A DNA stretch of 64,000 nt, from NCBI GenBank assembly GCA_000306725.1, contig CP003083.1, positions 1,984,001 to 2,048,000 of the forward strand. The letters run 5' to 3'. The number at the start of each line of letters is the position of its first letter. The first letter of the stretch is position 1. Of this stretch, positions 48,514 to 53,508 are shown one piece after another. The translations under genes and the position numbers were made by a program. This DNA is from Methanolobus psychrophilus R15. GTDB lineage: Archaea; Halobacteriota; Methanosarcinia; Methanosarcinales; Methanosarcinaceae. Below the pieces are notes generated by a model, which was not told the origin of the DNA, did not search any database, and saw only the letters and a program-made list of their open reading frames with translations.

Positions 48514-48981
48514 ATGGAAAAAAGCAGATTCCCGGCAGTTCTCCTGGGAGTTCTTGTGATCCTCCTTCTTCTCGGGGGCATCTATCTGGGAATGGTCCAT
48601 CTGAAGGCTCAAAATCCTGGCGGAATGAATGTAAGTTCATCCAGGGCAGTGAATATGATAAAGAATGATTCCGCGGCAGCTGCCTTTATCTCTGACAATT
48701 TCAAGGTTTCAAGCTGGAGGGCGACAAAGACCACGCTTATTCAGGGGGCTGAGTTCTTAAATAGCACTCAGGACGATCCCGACAGTAATGCAGCATACGG
48801 TGACCGGGTCTGGAAGGTCGAGATCATGGAACGTACCTGTGCATGTCCGGCGCCAAGTGAACTTTATGTAGTTGAGGGCTATGTAGATGCAGATACGGGA
48901 CATGTCCTTTATGTTAAAACGATGACGGCTCCGGAGAAGAACTATGAAAAAGAGACCTGTGCTTCAACAGCCTGTCATTAA
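48514..48981 (+). CDS. membrane-anchored protein upstream of Trx-CcdA fusion, unknown
   Basis: I do not recognise this protein of about 155 residues. It has one N-terminal transmembrane helix (about 5-27), then an extracytoplasmic domain with WKVEIMERTCACPAPSEL followed by VVEGYVDADTGHVLYV, which resembles the end of a PepSY-type fold. The tail has CASTACH, giving four Cys outside the membrane. The last 38 bases overlap the thioredoxin-CcdA gene, so it is a likely thiol substrate or partner of that protein. The ATG at 48514 is preferred to one 14 codons upstream. Confidence 0.7.
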   Translation: MEKSRFPAVLLGVLVILLLLGGIYLGMVHLKAQNPGGMNVSSSRAVNMIKNDSAAAAFISDNFKVSSWRATKTTLIQGAEFLNSTQDDPDSNAAYGDRVWKVEIMERTCACPAPSELYVVEGYVDADTGHVLYVKTMTAPEKNYEKETCASTACH

Positions 48982-50062
48982 ATTCCTTTCAATACTGGCT
49001 CTCTGCGCGCTTTTCATTGTGCCGGTTCCGGCAGCTGCAGCCATTTCAAATGAAGTGCAGGTAGAATACTTCTCTGACCCTGCATGCATCAAGTGCACAA
49101 GGGCAGCCCCAGTGGTCGAAGATGTCGCAGGCCGGTATGAGAACGTCAATTTCACCCGTTATGATATACGTTCCTCTTTCACATATGCACAGCAATATGG
49201 GGTAACCCTTGTACCGGCTGTTGTCATAAATAAAAGCCTGCTAATAACTTACGAAGACTACAACGGTGACATCGTATTACTTGAGAACCTGCTGGTTGAG
49301 GGCATAGAGAATCCTCCTGCAGCTGAGGGTCCGGAAGTGTCCTGGAAAAGTGATGCATTTCCAAATGAAGGCCTGAGTCTGGGGAAGTCTCATCTGCTTG
49401 TTTTCATCGCAGGTCTGCTTGCGGGCTTTAACCCCTGCCTTCTGGCAGTCATGGCCTTCCTGTCATCAGCGATCATATCCTCCAACGGGACCCGCAGGGA
49501 CATGCTTACTTTGGTTTGCGGTTTTTGCGCAGGTATTTTTGTGACATATATGGTAGTGGGGATAGGGATACTCAATACCGTCAACTCCTTCCCGGATGTA
49601 CAGGAAACCATTACAATGGTGATGGTCGCGCTCATTTTTGTTCTGGGGATATGGCACCTTTATGATGCTTTTTACATGAAGATCCATCATAAAGGCACAT
49701 TCAGGACGCCTCAATTTTTTATCAGGTTCATGGGGGAGATCAAAGGCCGGAACATCCTTTTACTTTCTTTCCTCGCAGGAGGCTTATTCTCACTTATAAA
49801 AGCTCCTTGTGTAGGGGCTGTGTACCTTGCAATCCTGGATATGCTTATTTCCGGGAATAATCTTTTAGGAGGTGCTGTGTATCTGGGCATCTACAACTTT
49901 GGCGTAGTCCTGCCTATCCTTATACTAGGGGGCATGCTTGCTTTCGGGCTGGATCCTGAAAAGGTCTCGGACTTCAAGGAGAGAAGGCGTGTTGAGATAC
50001 GGCTGGTAACCGGAATGACACTTATCCTGCTGGCCGTATTGCTGCAGTTGAAAGTGATCTGA
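48944..50062 (+). CDS. thioredoxin-CcdA fusion protein (DsbD-like)
   Basis: A 372-residue protein. After a signal/anchor helix (about 12-34) comes a thioredoxin-like domain with CIKC (about 49-52, ACIKCTRAAP) and a cis-Pro loop TLVPAVVI, then a CcdA-type membrane domain with six helices and the Cys in FNPCLLAVM and KAPCVGAVYL. The fusion would carry electrons through the membrane directly onto its own thioredoxin domain. A second, two-gene version of the same system is at 17952-19114. The start overlaps the preceding membrane protein. Confidence 0.87.
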   Translation: MKKRPVLQQPVIKFLSILALCALFIVPVPAAAAISNEVQVEYFSDPACIKCTRAAPVVEDVAGRYENVNFTRYDIRSSFTYAQQYGVTLVPAVVINKSLLITYEDYNGDIVLLENLLVEGIENPPAAEGPEVSWKSDAFPNEGLSLGKSHLLVFIAGLLAGFNPCLLAVMAFLSSAIISSNGTRRDMLTLVCGFCAGIFVTYMVVGIGILNTVNSFPDVQETITMVMVALIFVLGIWHLYDAFYMKIHHKGTFRTPQFFIRFMGEIKGRNILLLSFLAGGLFSLIKAPCVGAVYLAILDMLISGNNLLGGAVYLGIYNFGVVLPILILGGMLAFGLDPEKVSDFKERRRVEIRLVTGMTLILLAVLLQLKVI

Positions 50063-50096: not shown

Positions 50097-50966
50097 TTAC
50101 CCGAATATCAGGTATGCGGCCATAACGCCTACCATGCACATACCCAGGTTCAATATGATATTCAGCAATGAATAGTTCCTCTCTCCTTCCTCGAGGAGTC
50201 TGAAGGACTCGTAGGCAAACGTAGAAAAGGTTGTGAAAGAGCCGAGCACTCCAATGCTCACAAGATATGTCATTGAACCGGATACTGATGAGAATGTCAG
50301 TGCGGCAAGTACGAAGCTGCCTATGACATTTACTGTAAGGGTGCCGGTGGGGATCTCTCCGACCCTCGGAATGGCGCCGGCTACAAGGAACCTGAGAGTT
50401 GCACCTGCAAATCCTCCTGTCCCCACAAGCAACAACTCTGTGCACATTGTATGTCCTCCTTCAATGGCCGGGAAAAGTATCAGGATTGATAATCCTGCTA
50501 TGCCATATGCCATGTGGCCCGCATGCCTGCCTTTAAGAAGAGTCGCCATCGTGCCTGGCAAGGGGGAAAATAGTCTCCTTTCCTTCAGGTCGGTAATGTA
50601 TATTACGATCCCTCTACCCGCGAAAACTCCTGCAACCGCGAGGACTATGTTCTCAAGGATGTTCAGGGATGCAGTCAGAGGTGGCATTTGGAATGTTTGT
50701 AATGCAAATGCAGAGAATGTTGTAAAAGAGCCCAGGAAACCTATCCCGAAGAACATTCTTGCCCTTGGAGTGGCATAGCCGAGATACTCGGAGTTGTATA
50801 GCAAAAAGCCCAGCAGGATGCTGCCGAGCACATTGACCACAAGTGTGCCCGTGGCCGGGCTGAAATAACCTGAAAGCGCAAACCTGGATGTTGCGCCCAG
50901 CACGCCCCCTGTTCCAATTATAAGCAGGGGCTGGCACTTCTCCTGAAACGTGGCTTCTTTACTCAA
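50097..50966 (-). CDS. double FluC/CrcB fluoride channel in one chain
   Basis: A 289-residue membrane protein containing two complete FluC units. Unit 1 (about 13-125) has GTGGVLGATSRF, TLVVNVLGS and GFLGSFTTFSAF. Unit 2 (about 176-289) has GTGGFAGATLRF, TLTVNVIGS and GVLGSFTTFSTF. Both keep the pore Asn (VN) and the Phe box. Between them are a basic loop (LKERRLF...KGRH) and one more hydrophobic helix (about 152-168), giving 4+1+4 helices and antiparallel halves, as in eukaryotic FEX. Bacterial FluC is normally a separate dual-topology dimer. An ideal internal start lies at Met174. The gene overlaps moeA by 8 bases. Confidence 0.85.
   Translation of the reverse strand: MSKEATFQEKCQPLLIIGTGGVLGATSRFALSGYFSPATGTLVVNVLGSILLGFLLYNSEYLGYATPRARMFFGIGFLGSFTTFSAFALQTFQMPPLTASLNILENIVLAVAGVFAGRGIVIYITDLKERRLFSPLPGTMATLLKGRHAGHMAYGIAGLSILILFPAIEGGHTMCTELLLVGTGGFAGATLRFLVAGAIPRVGEIPTGTLTVNVIGSFVLAALTFSSVSGSMTYLVSIGVLGSFTTFSTFAYESFRLLEEGERNYSLLNIILNLGMCMVGVMAAYLIFG
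50445..50460 (-). promoter_or_regulatory. internal ribosome site and ATG before second FluC unit
   Basis: AGGAGG (50455-50460, minus) followed by seven bases and ATG (50447-50445) lies in frame inside the fusion at Met174. It would yield a separate second unit of about 116 residues starting MCTELLLVG. Confidence 0.5.
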
Positions 50967-52155
50967 TCAATACAACATCCACTTCATTTCCTTCTTCGTA
51001 CCCTTCCACATTCTCAGGTATGATCACAAAACCGTTGGATTTGGCGATGGAACTCAGGATCCCTGCTCCTGCGGTCATCAGAGGCCGGGCTGTATTACCT
51101 TCAAGTATCACCCTTGCGTAGCTCACGTAGCCTTCCCTGGAATTTATCTTGCCTGTAAGTCTTGCCTTTACGGTGATGTCAGGTATCTGCGGGATGTTTC
51201 CTTTTTTGCGTATTGCCGGCTTACCGAAAGCAAATAGCGCCACCAGTCCTGCGGCAGGGTATCCGGGCATGCACAGTACAGGTACATCACCGATGATCCC
51301 AAGTGCTGTCGGTTTCCCGGGGCTTAAGCCCACGCCGTGCACAAGCTTCCTGCCCATAGAAGCCACCACATCGGGCACATAGTCTTTCTCACCAACAGAT
51401 GTCCCGCCGGAGATTACTATGAAGTCAGCATCCATATTCTCTGAGATAGCTTTCCTTATAAGTTCCCTGTCCTCGGGAACGATTGCGCAGTATTGCGGCA
51501 GTGCACCCCACTGACTGGCATACAGGCCTATCATGAGGCTGTTGATATCCAGTGTCTTCCCCGGAGGTGGCACTTCGCTGCTGCTCTCAAGCGGGATAAG
51601 GTCGTTACCTGTGGGAATGATGGCAACCAGCGGCCTGGAGTAAACCTTTATTTCCCTTATTCCAAGTGAAGCGAGCACTGCTATGTCGCAGGGTCGCAGC
51701 AGATGACCTTTGTAGAATATGATCTCGTTCTGCCTCACATCCTCGCCTATGTCGCCTATGTTCTTTCCCGGATGGACCTGTGCGCGCACCTCTATCATAT
51801 CTCCGATACATATTGTGTCCTCTTCCATGAGCACGGCATCGGCAGCATCAGGTACATAGGCTCCCGTATTCATTCGGCAGCCAACGCCTTCATTCACTTC
51901 GTCCTGGATCAGCAGCATTACAGGGTTGGTGGGCGAGGCTCCGAGGATGTCAGCTGAGCGGACGGCATAGCCATCCATGGCAGAGCGACGGTAGTGAGGC
52001 ACATTTCTCGGTGCAAGTATGCCGGTTGCAAGCACCCTTCCCACACCTTCATTGATCGCTACTATGTCAGTGCGTTCCAGGGGGCTTATCGCTCCAAGGA
52101 ACTCCTCTCTTGCTTCATTCACACTGCTGCGCTCTTTAAATATCCTGCTGTCCAT
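50959..52155 (-). CDS. moeA: molybdopterin molybdenumtransferase
   Basis: A 398-residue MoeA that inserts molybdate (or tungstate) into adenylated molybdopterin. Features are SAMDGYAVRSADI, the INEGVGCRMNTGA-like loop, AIIPTGNDLIP, VISGGTSVGEKDYVPD and PVLCMPGYPAAGLVALF. The domain order matches MoeA domains I-IV. moaD lies 15 bases upstream and the double FluC gene overlaps its end. Confidence 0.93.
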   Translation of the reverse strand: MDSRIFKERSSVNEAREEFLGAISPLERTDIVAINEGVGRVLATGILAPRNVPHYRRSAMDGYAVRSADILGASPTNPVMLLIQDEVNEGVGCRMNTGAYVPDAADAVLMEEDTICIGDMIEVRAQVHPGKNIGDIGEDVRQNEIIFYKGHLLRPCDIAVLASLGIREIKVYSRPLVAIIPTGNDLIPLESSSEVPPPGKTLDINSLMIGLYASQWGALPQYCAIVPEDRELIRKAISENMDADFIVISGGTSVGEKDYVPDVVASMGRKLVHGVGLSPGKPTALGIIGDVPVLCMPGYPAAGLVALFAFGKPAIRKKGNIPQIPDITVKARLTGKINSREGYVSYARVILEGNTARPLMTAGAGILSSIAKSNGFVIIPENVEGYEEGNEVDVVLIE

Positions 52156-52734: not shown

Positions 52735-53508
52735 CTAACGATCCCCCGCCTTATCAAAAGACCAGCTGCCAAGCAGTATCATGGTAAGTGCGAATACAAT
52801 TATGACTGTCATGGAGCGCATGATGGGTATTTCGGATACGTCAAGAAGCGCCCACCTGAGAGCTTCCACGCCATAGGTGAGGGGGTTGAGCTGAACAGGT
52901 ATGCTTAGCCACGAAGGAAGGTTGGCCATGGGATAGAATGCCGTGCTTGCCATTAGTGTAGGGAACGTGATGAATGTCATCATCATCTGGAAGCCTTCAT
53001 GAGATTCTATCCTTGACGCAAGGGTGATCCCAAGTCCGATGAAGCCCATGCCTGTAATGAACATTATCAGGATGCTTAATATCTGCCCGATGACGGATGT
53101 GTATTCCACAATGAACAGTCCGCTGATGATCATAAGCAGTGTTCCCTGCACCATAGCAGCTGTCACGCCGCCTGCAGCTTTCCCCAGAGCTGTGTAGAAG
53201 CGGCTTACAGGTGCCACAAGTATCTCTTTGAGAAAACCGAACTCACGGTCCCATATGATGGAAACACCACCCATGAGCGAGGCGAACAGCACAGACATGC
53301 CGATGATGCCCGGGGCCATGTAGTCAATGTAACTGCCATTGCGCATGGTCATTGTGCTTCCCAGGGCAGATCCCATTATGACAAGAAAAAACAATGGTGT
53401 TGCAAGTGACCCGATTATCCTTGAGCGTGAGCGGCGGTATCGAAGCATCTCCCGAAGCCAGAGAGTGAAGACAGTGTTCATACTATGCTTCATTCCGGTG
53501 AGGCCCAT
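52735..53508 (-). CDS. ABC-2 type transporter permease
   Basis: A 257-residue ABC-2 membrane subunit with about six helices and the family core LKEILVAPVSRF (about 94-105) plus LPSWLSIPVQLNPLTYGVEA near the C-terminus. It would export a drug, polysaccharide or lipid together with an ATPase, but no ATPase gene is adjacent. It starts one base after the UbiX stop, with TGGAG before its ATG, so it is read with the UbiX genes. Confidence 0.88.
   Translation of the reverse strand: MGLTGMKHSMNTVFTLWLREMLRYRRSRSRIIGSLATPLFFLVIMGSALGSTMTMRNGSYIDYMAPGIIGMSVLFASLMGGVSIIWDREFGFLKEILVAPVSRFYTALGKAAGGVTAAMVQGTLLMIISGLFIVEYTSVIGQILSILIMFITGMGFIGLGITLASRIESHEGFQMMMTFITFPTLMASTAFYPMANLPSWLSIPVQLNPLTYGVEALRWALLDVSEIPIMRSMTVIIVFALTMILLGSWSFDKAGDR

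Follow-up and report, generated by a model that had tools for sequence, protein, structure and literature searches.

A single-chain FluC/CrcB channel in Methanolobus with an inversion-linker helix apparently taken from a nearby ABC-2 permease

Introduction

Fusion of dual-topology genes is the supposed origin of inverted repeats in transporters and channels; when the helix number is even, this step needs an extra transmembrane (TM) helix. For Fluc proteins this extra-TM requirement has been called 'evolutionary gymnastics' (PMC3755343), and it has been put forward as something that may explain the lack of known fused SMR proteins (PMC9574504); a 2022 SMR review gives the linker helix requirement as one reason for a possible rarity of such fusions. 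Fusion was treated as the eukaryotic state, with capture of a TM helix needed, in an eLife paper of 2013, and in a paper of 2021 the Flucs of bacteria are described as dimeric, those of eukaryotes as fused. Neither a natural fused prokaryotic Fluc nor the source of a linker helix is described in the literature searched, which lay mostly outside subscription journals. A 64-kb window of the genome of the archaeon Methanolobus psychrophilus R15, i.e. the whole stretch of DNA analysed here, contains one open reading frame with two such units. How did this frame come about, and from where did it obtain its additional helix?

Results

The fused gene of R15

The frame follows moeA on the minus strand. 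The features of the locus are:

50959..52155 (-), moeA, directly upstream of the fused gene
50097..50966 (-), fused two-domain FluC/CrcB gene, 289 codons, TTG start, stop included
50601..50927 (-), FluC unit 1, residues 14-122, TM1-TM4, predicted N-in/C-in; key residues T41, N45, F84, S85, F87, Q90, N102
50508..50600 (-), loop 4, basic, residues 123-153, five K/R, predicted cytoplasmic
50463..50507 (-), TM5, inversion-linker helix, core residues 154-168, predicted in-to-out, pLDDT under 50
50433..50462 (-), loop 5, short and acidic, residues 169-178, predicted outside
50106..50432 (-), FluC unit 2, residues 179-287, TM6-TM9, predicted N-out; key residues T209, N213, F247, S248, F250, E253, N269

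Pfam CRCB (PF02537) matched two stretches of the frame (E 7.4e-41; 139.1 bits against a cut-off of 32.9), and TIGR00494 scored 127 (cut-off 80.45). Judged by these curated cut-offs, the encoded protein is a member of the FluC/CrcB fluoride channel family. A genome search returned the fused gene as the sole CrcB locus of R15. The earlier note, which was made from the letters alone, had read the frame as two full units each carrying VNVxGS and TTFSxF, and both motifs are indeed present in both units. Alignment to Fluc-Ec2, together with conservation, located the pore Asn, the TTFSxF Phe box, GxxGAxxR, the vestibule Ser and the T-E-Y/N triad. The claim that both halves keep the key residues holds for the pore Asn and the Phe box but not for the triad Glu of half 1, where Q90 stands in place of Glu88 of Bpe-Fluc; the remaining key residues are retained in both halves. 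Gln also occupies this site in unfused gene 1 of relatives.

The two units are joined by a linker (residues 123-178) consisting of a basic loop, a hydrophobic stretch and an acidic loop. The basic loop and the single extra helix described in the note were thus both recovered, the latter with a Kyte-Doolittle mean of up to 1.49 over 19 residues. Upstream, the TTG start abuts the preceding stop codon and overlaps the moeA stop by 8 nt (50959-50966); the retention of this overlap in nearly all of the genus suggests translational coupling of a molybdopterin gene with a fluoride exporter. The product of the convergent neighbour (48944-50062, +) combines a thioredoxin domain with a DsbD-like membrane domain in one chain. 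No Rfam family, fluoride riboswitches included, reached its gathering score within the 64-kb window.

Distribution and origin of the fusion

A family-level scan of 112 genomes yielded a full-length fused frame in seven Methanolobus genomes, R15 included, at 59-93% identity. An eighth fused locus, in genome G041, has unit 1 and the linker, followed, where unit 2 begins, by a deletion that breaks the frame (L010, about 1480-1490), reflecting either a sequencing error or a decaying copy. The other species of the genus from which both units were recovered on one contig have two adjacent crcB genes, and so do the other genera examined. Two genomes of the same genus (G048 and G051; 93-94% complete) gave no crcB match, yet they do contain the ABC-2 permease treated below.

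Among the matches listed from a phylum-wide scan covering 393 genomes there was no further full-length fused frame, and the long-open-frame candidates inspected from that scan were gene pairs. What looked like fusions in Methanosarcina and haloarchaea (open frames of 239-266) proved to be two genes, many of them split by one in-frame stop. The matches listed in a plasmid search were two-piece and mostly annotated as separate crcB genes, with no fused relative recognised. At the Methanosarcina-type loci L032, L058, L059 and L070-L075, crcB1 and crcB2 share one frame with a single TGA or TAA stop between them; such pairs are one substitution short of a 4+4 fusion which, without linker helix, would be parallel. 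At L069 (G137) the single in-frame stop at the crcB junction is TAG, which may or may not be a pyrrolysine codon in this organism.

The occurrence of two genes in close relatives, which the note had named as a ground for doubt, is thus real, and it is the one point in favour of an assembly or sequencing artefact concealing two true genes. Such an error, or chance, is exceedingly improbable because the whole frame is common to seven genomes at the identities given above. The linker has a dN/dS of 0.36-0.51, compared with 0.10-0.38 for the FluC halves; although it evolves faster than the halves, it stays below neutrality and is therefore under selection and retained.

The eight fused loci group together in a tree of concatenated crcB halves (UFBoot 86) and in a tree of crcB halves plus moeA (SH-aLRT/UFBoot 91/92), while moeA alone gives a matching clade with a support of 62. 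The trees thereby place, with moderate support, a single origin of the fusion in the ancestor of a Methanolobus subclade. Since the sister lineages and all other relatives checked have two adjacent genes, the fusion would be a recent, single event. The moeA-crcB order, with the TTG start overlapping the moeA stop, is kept in nearly all of the genus and favours vertical descent.

Topology and structural model

With the N terminus placed inside, the sum of K and R in the counted loops was 6-14 inside and 0 outside in every fused protein. The same opposite biases were seen in the two units of the unfused gene pairs in this alignment. An AlphaFold model was calculated from an 18-row alignment, ten rows of which came from unfused genes lying side by side, translated across a single in-frame stop and added for depth only (mean pLDDT 70.4, pTM 0.68). 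Residues 131-170 have a pLDDT under 50, so that the path of the linker in the model is of low confidence. The top structural match, over the whole chain, was Candida albicans FEX (PDB 9op1, 9op1_C; Foldseek E 1.2e-5); the VIA match to the same chain covered residues 1-286 (Z 25.6, 262 aligned). Single Fluc chains matched each half of the model (Z about 11).

The K/R counts, the model and the gene-pair ancestry support antiparallel halves in a 4+1+4 plan, and it is from these that we infer the membrane topology of the fused protein. They bear out what had been predicted with the positive-inside rule, namely a FEX-like layout in an archaeon. Eukaryotic FEX (yeast Fex1p; Candida albicans FEX) likewise has two FluC domains in one chain with a TM linker. 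The shared plan and the whole-chain match might speak for acquisition of the gene from a eukaryote, or for an archaeal ancestor of FEX. Against such a relationship, each half is nearest to paired genes of the same genus in trees confined to archaeal crcB, the locus sits in place after moeA, and moeA gives the matching clade. Descent in either direction is accordingly given almost no credence; by these sequence relationships FEX is an analogue, with convergence of the plan and a fusion not of common descent.

Source of the linker helix

Beyond what the note had noticed, the linker resembles part of an ABC-2 permease encoded nearby:

52735..53508 (-), ABC-2 type permease gene, putative source of the linker helix, PF01061 E 5e-32
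53257..53373 (-), donor-like permease segment, outer loop and TM2 (G000:C1:2037257-2037373)
50451..50555 (-), segment of the fused gene homologous to TM2 of the ABC-2 permease, residues 138-172

In R15 (G000) the permease gene lies ~2.7 kb upstream of the fused gene on the same strand. When the R15 linker was used as query across the genus, one ABC-2 permease appeared repeatedly after the linkers themselves (best E 0.006). The same permease segment was the top non-crcB match for the linkers of G041 (about 5e-5) and of G064, the deepest fused branch (about 3e-5). A profile of all eight linkers detected the permease in unfused genomes at E 2.3e-7 and, at about 5e-4, genes of similar size in a second genus (g14) that are probably its orthologues. 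Alignment of linker and permease by hhalign gave a probability of 95% and E 4.1e-8, compared with 0.15-0.61 for three control alignments. In the reverse direction, a permease HMM from which the fused-clade genomes had been left out found the G041 linker at 5.5e-6.

The G041 linker RHYSSYMAPGIMGATILFFPVMGGIT aligns ungapped to the permease GRYIDYMAPGIIGMSILFASLMGGIS, with 46/63 identical positions in the DNA, the best case among the linkers, and no codon shuffle was as good. The homologous stretch amounts to ~35-40 codons, is in frame, and covers nearly all of the net insertion. The donor permease is still present in the fused genomes, save G041, where it was not found nearby.

Could the linker instead have arisen de novo, from non-coding or out-of-frame DNA of the crcB1-crcB2 junction, its permease likeness being the generic look of a membrane helix? 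The linkers are short and hydrophobic, and two of the eight (G055 and G040) retain little permease similarity, so that taken singly their likeness is no longer clear; that of G000 is only modest. Set against this, linker-permease scores exceeded all 3000 shuffles for G041, G064, G046 and G000, and for at least five linkers they exceeded those of every TM-like segment from other genes in the window. Of the 460 TM-like segments taken from window genes, only those of the G000 linker itself came near these scores; the highest score elsewhere was 52. The likeness extends to the DNA, in the reading frame of the permease; three separate queries and the profile pick the same permease, whose gene shares the strand and lies no more than a few kb upstream; and flanking crcB sequence has no consistent likeness. 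A duplication of crcB or of flanking DNA as linker source likewise left no consistent signal in sequence comparison. We consider a de novo linker improbable, and the linker apparently derives from the TM2 region of the nearby ABC-2 permease.

TM2 of ABC-2 permeases runs from outside to inside, and the donor permease has a basic N terminus ahead of TM1. In the fusion it must run in-to-out. The stretch DREFGFLK, which follows TM2 in the permease, is absent from the copied segment. By standard topology rules, the copied helix would now be reversed with respect to its direction in the donor.

Junction of the two frames

In most paired Methanolobus genomes, the end of crcB1 encodes RRRE or RREG across the crcB2 Shine-Dalgarno sequence AGGAGGGAAGG, and crcB2 is one base out of frame relative to crcB1. 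The distance from Phe box to Phe box is 361-364 nt in most pairs of the genus (offset 1 mod 3), compared with 477, 486 or 489 nt in the fused genomes (offset 0); the extra 113-128 nt are the linker. Where the join took place may have been determined by microhomology at GGNGG. A reading of the GG in loop 5 as purely the translated old Shine-Dalgarno sequence of crcB2 was rejected: the permease has MGG there too, so that the two origins are indistinguishable.

A further element lies at this junction in R15:

50445..50459 (-), Shine-Dalgarno-like GGAGG and ATG (M174), start of unit 2, possible internal start

Unit 2 might also be made alone from this site (GGAGG, seven bases, ATG174), giving fused chains together with free second subunits. 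A good Shine-Dalgarno sequence and ATG occur in this form, at the old crcB2 start site, only in G000 and G056; an SD-like sequence also precedes an ATG in G055. The codon is not conserved, being ATC in G040 and GTC in G049, with no start there in G064, which makes such additional synthesis rather unlikely.

Discussion

The observations can be combined into the following course of events. An overlapping crcB1-crcB2 pair, already making an antiparallel heterodimer, would have been the starting point. From the ABC-2 permease gene, which lies a few kb upstream, a segment of about 115 nt encoding an outer loop and TM2 would have been copied; the copy would have gone in between the Shine-Dalgarno sequence of crcB2 and its start codon, with its orientation unchanged. 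The insert would be read in the permease's own frame, and its net length of 2 mod 3 would bring crcB1 and crcB2 into one frame. The helix so acquired would cross from inside to outside, so that unit 2 stays upside-down. The permease family (PF01061) would thus have contributed its outer loop and TM2, only one helix being copied. The product would be a single-chain antiparallel FluC 'dimer' of 4 TM + 1 inversion-linker TM + 4 TM. We consider it very probable that the protein is such a single-chain antiparallel FluC, and that it arose once by capture of TM2 of an ABC-2 permease into a crcB pair.

The unfused sister state corresponds to the prokaryotic heterodimeric Fluc pairs of the La1/La2 type, which are encoded by adjacent homologous genes with opposite K/R bias; these differ from the fused protein in having separate chains without linker helix. 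Another counterpart is the engineered Laf-TM (La1, a glycophorin helix, La2; PMC3755343), likewise an antiparallel Fluc in one chain, which has in common with the fused protein a foreign TM helix, a long loop 4 and a short loop 5. Laf-TM is man-made, whereas the foreign helix of the archaeal protein would have been captured naturally. Among engineered constructs, La1-TM-La2 conducts in monomeric form, and those with parallel halves are barely active (PMC3755343). Family membership, the conserved residues and these engineered fusions make conduction of fluoride by the Methanolobus protein likely by analogy. It would act as a passive channel through which cytoplasmic fluoride leaves down its electrochemical gradient.

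In FEX one pore is vestigial (PMC5417652). The R15 protein is a separate archaeal fusion, in which pore Asn and Phe box are kept in both halves and whose linker can be traced to an ABC-2 permease. It would therefore offer a fused Fluc with, unlike FEX, both pores apparently intact.

The origin of an inversion linker appears traceable here: a TM helix encoded by an unrelated transporter gene close by was probably copied in between the genes of two antiparallel subunits, where it would span the membrane against its donor direction. A heterodimer would thereby have become an inverted-repeat channel of one chain, all inside a single archaeal genus. Because this genus still has the gene pairs, the fused gene and the helix donor, the fusion step can be replayed. 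The locus may thus provide a sequence-level view of the birth of an inverted-repeat membrane protein.
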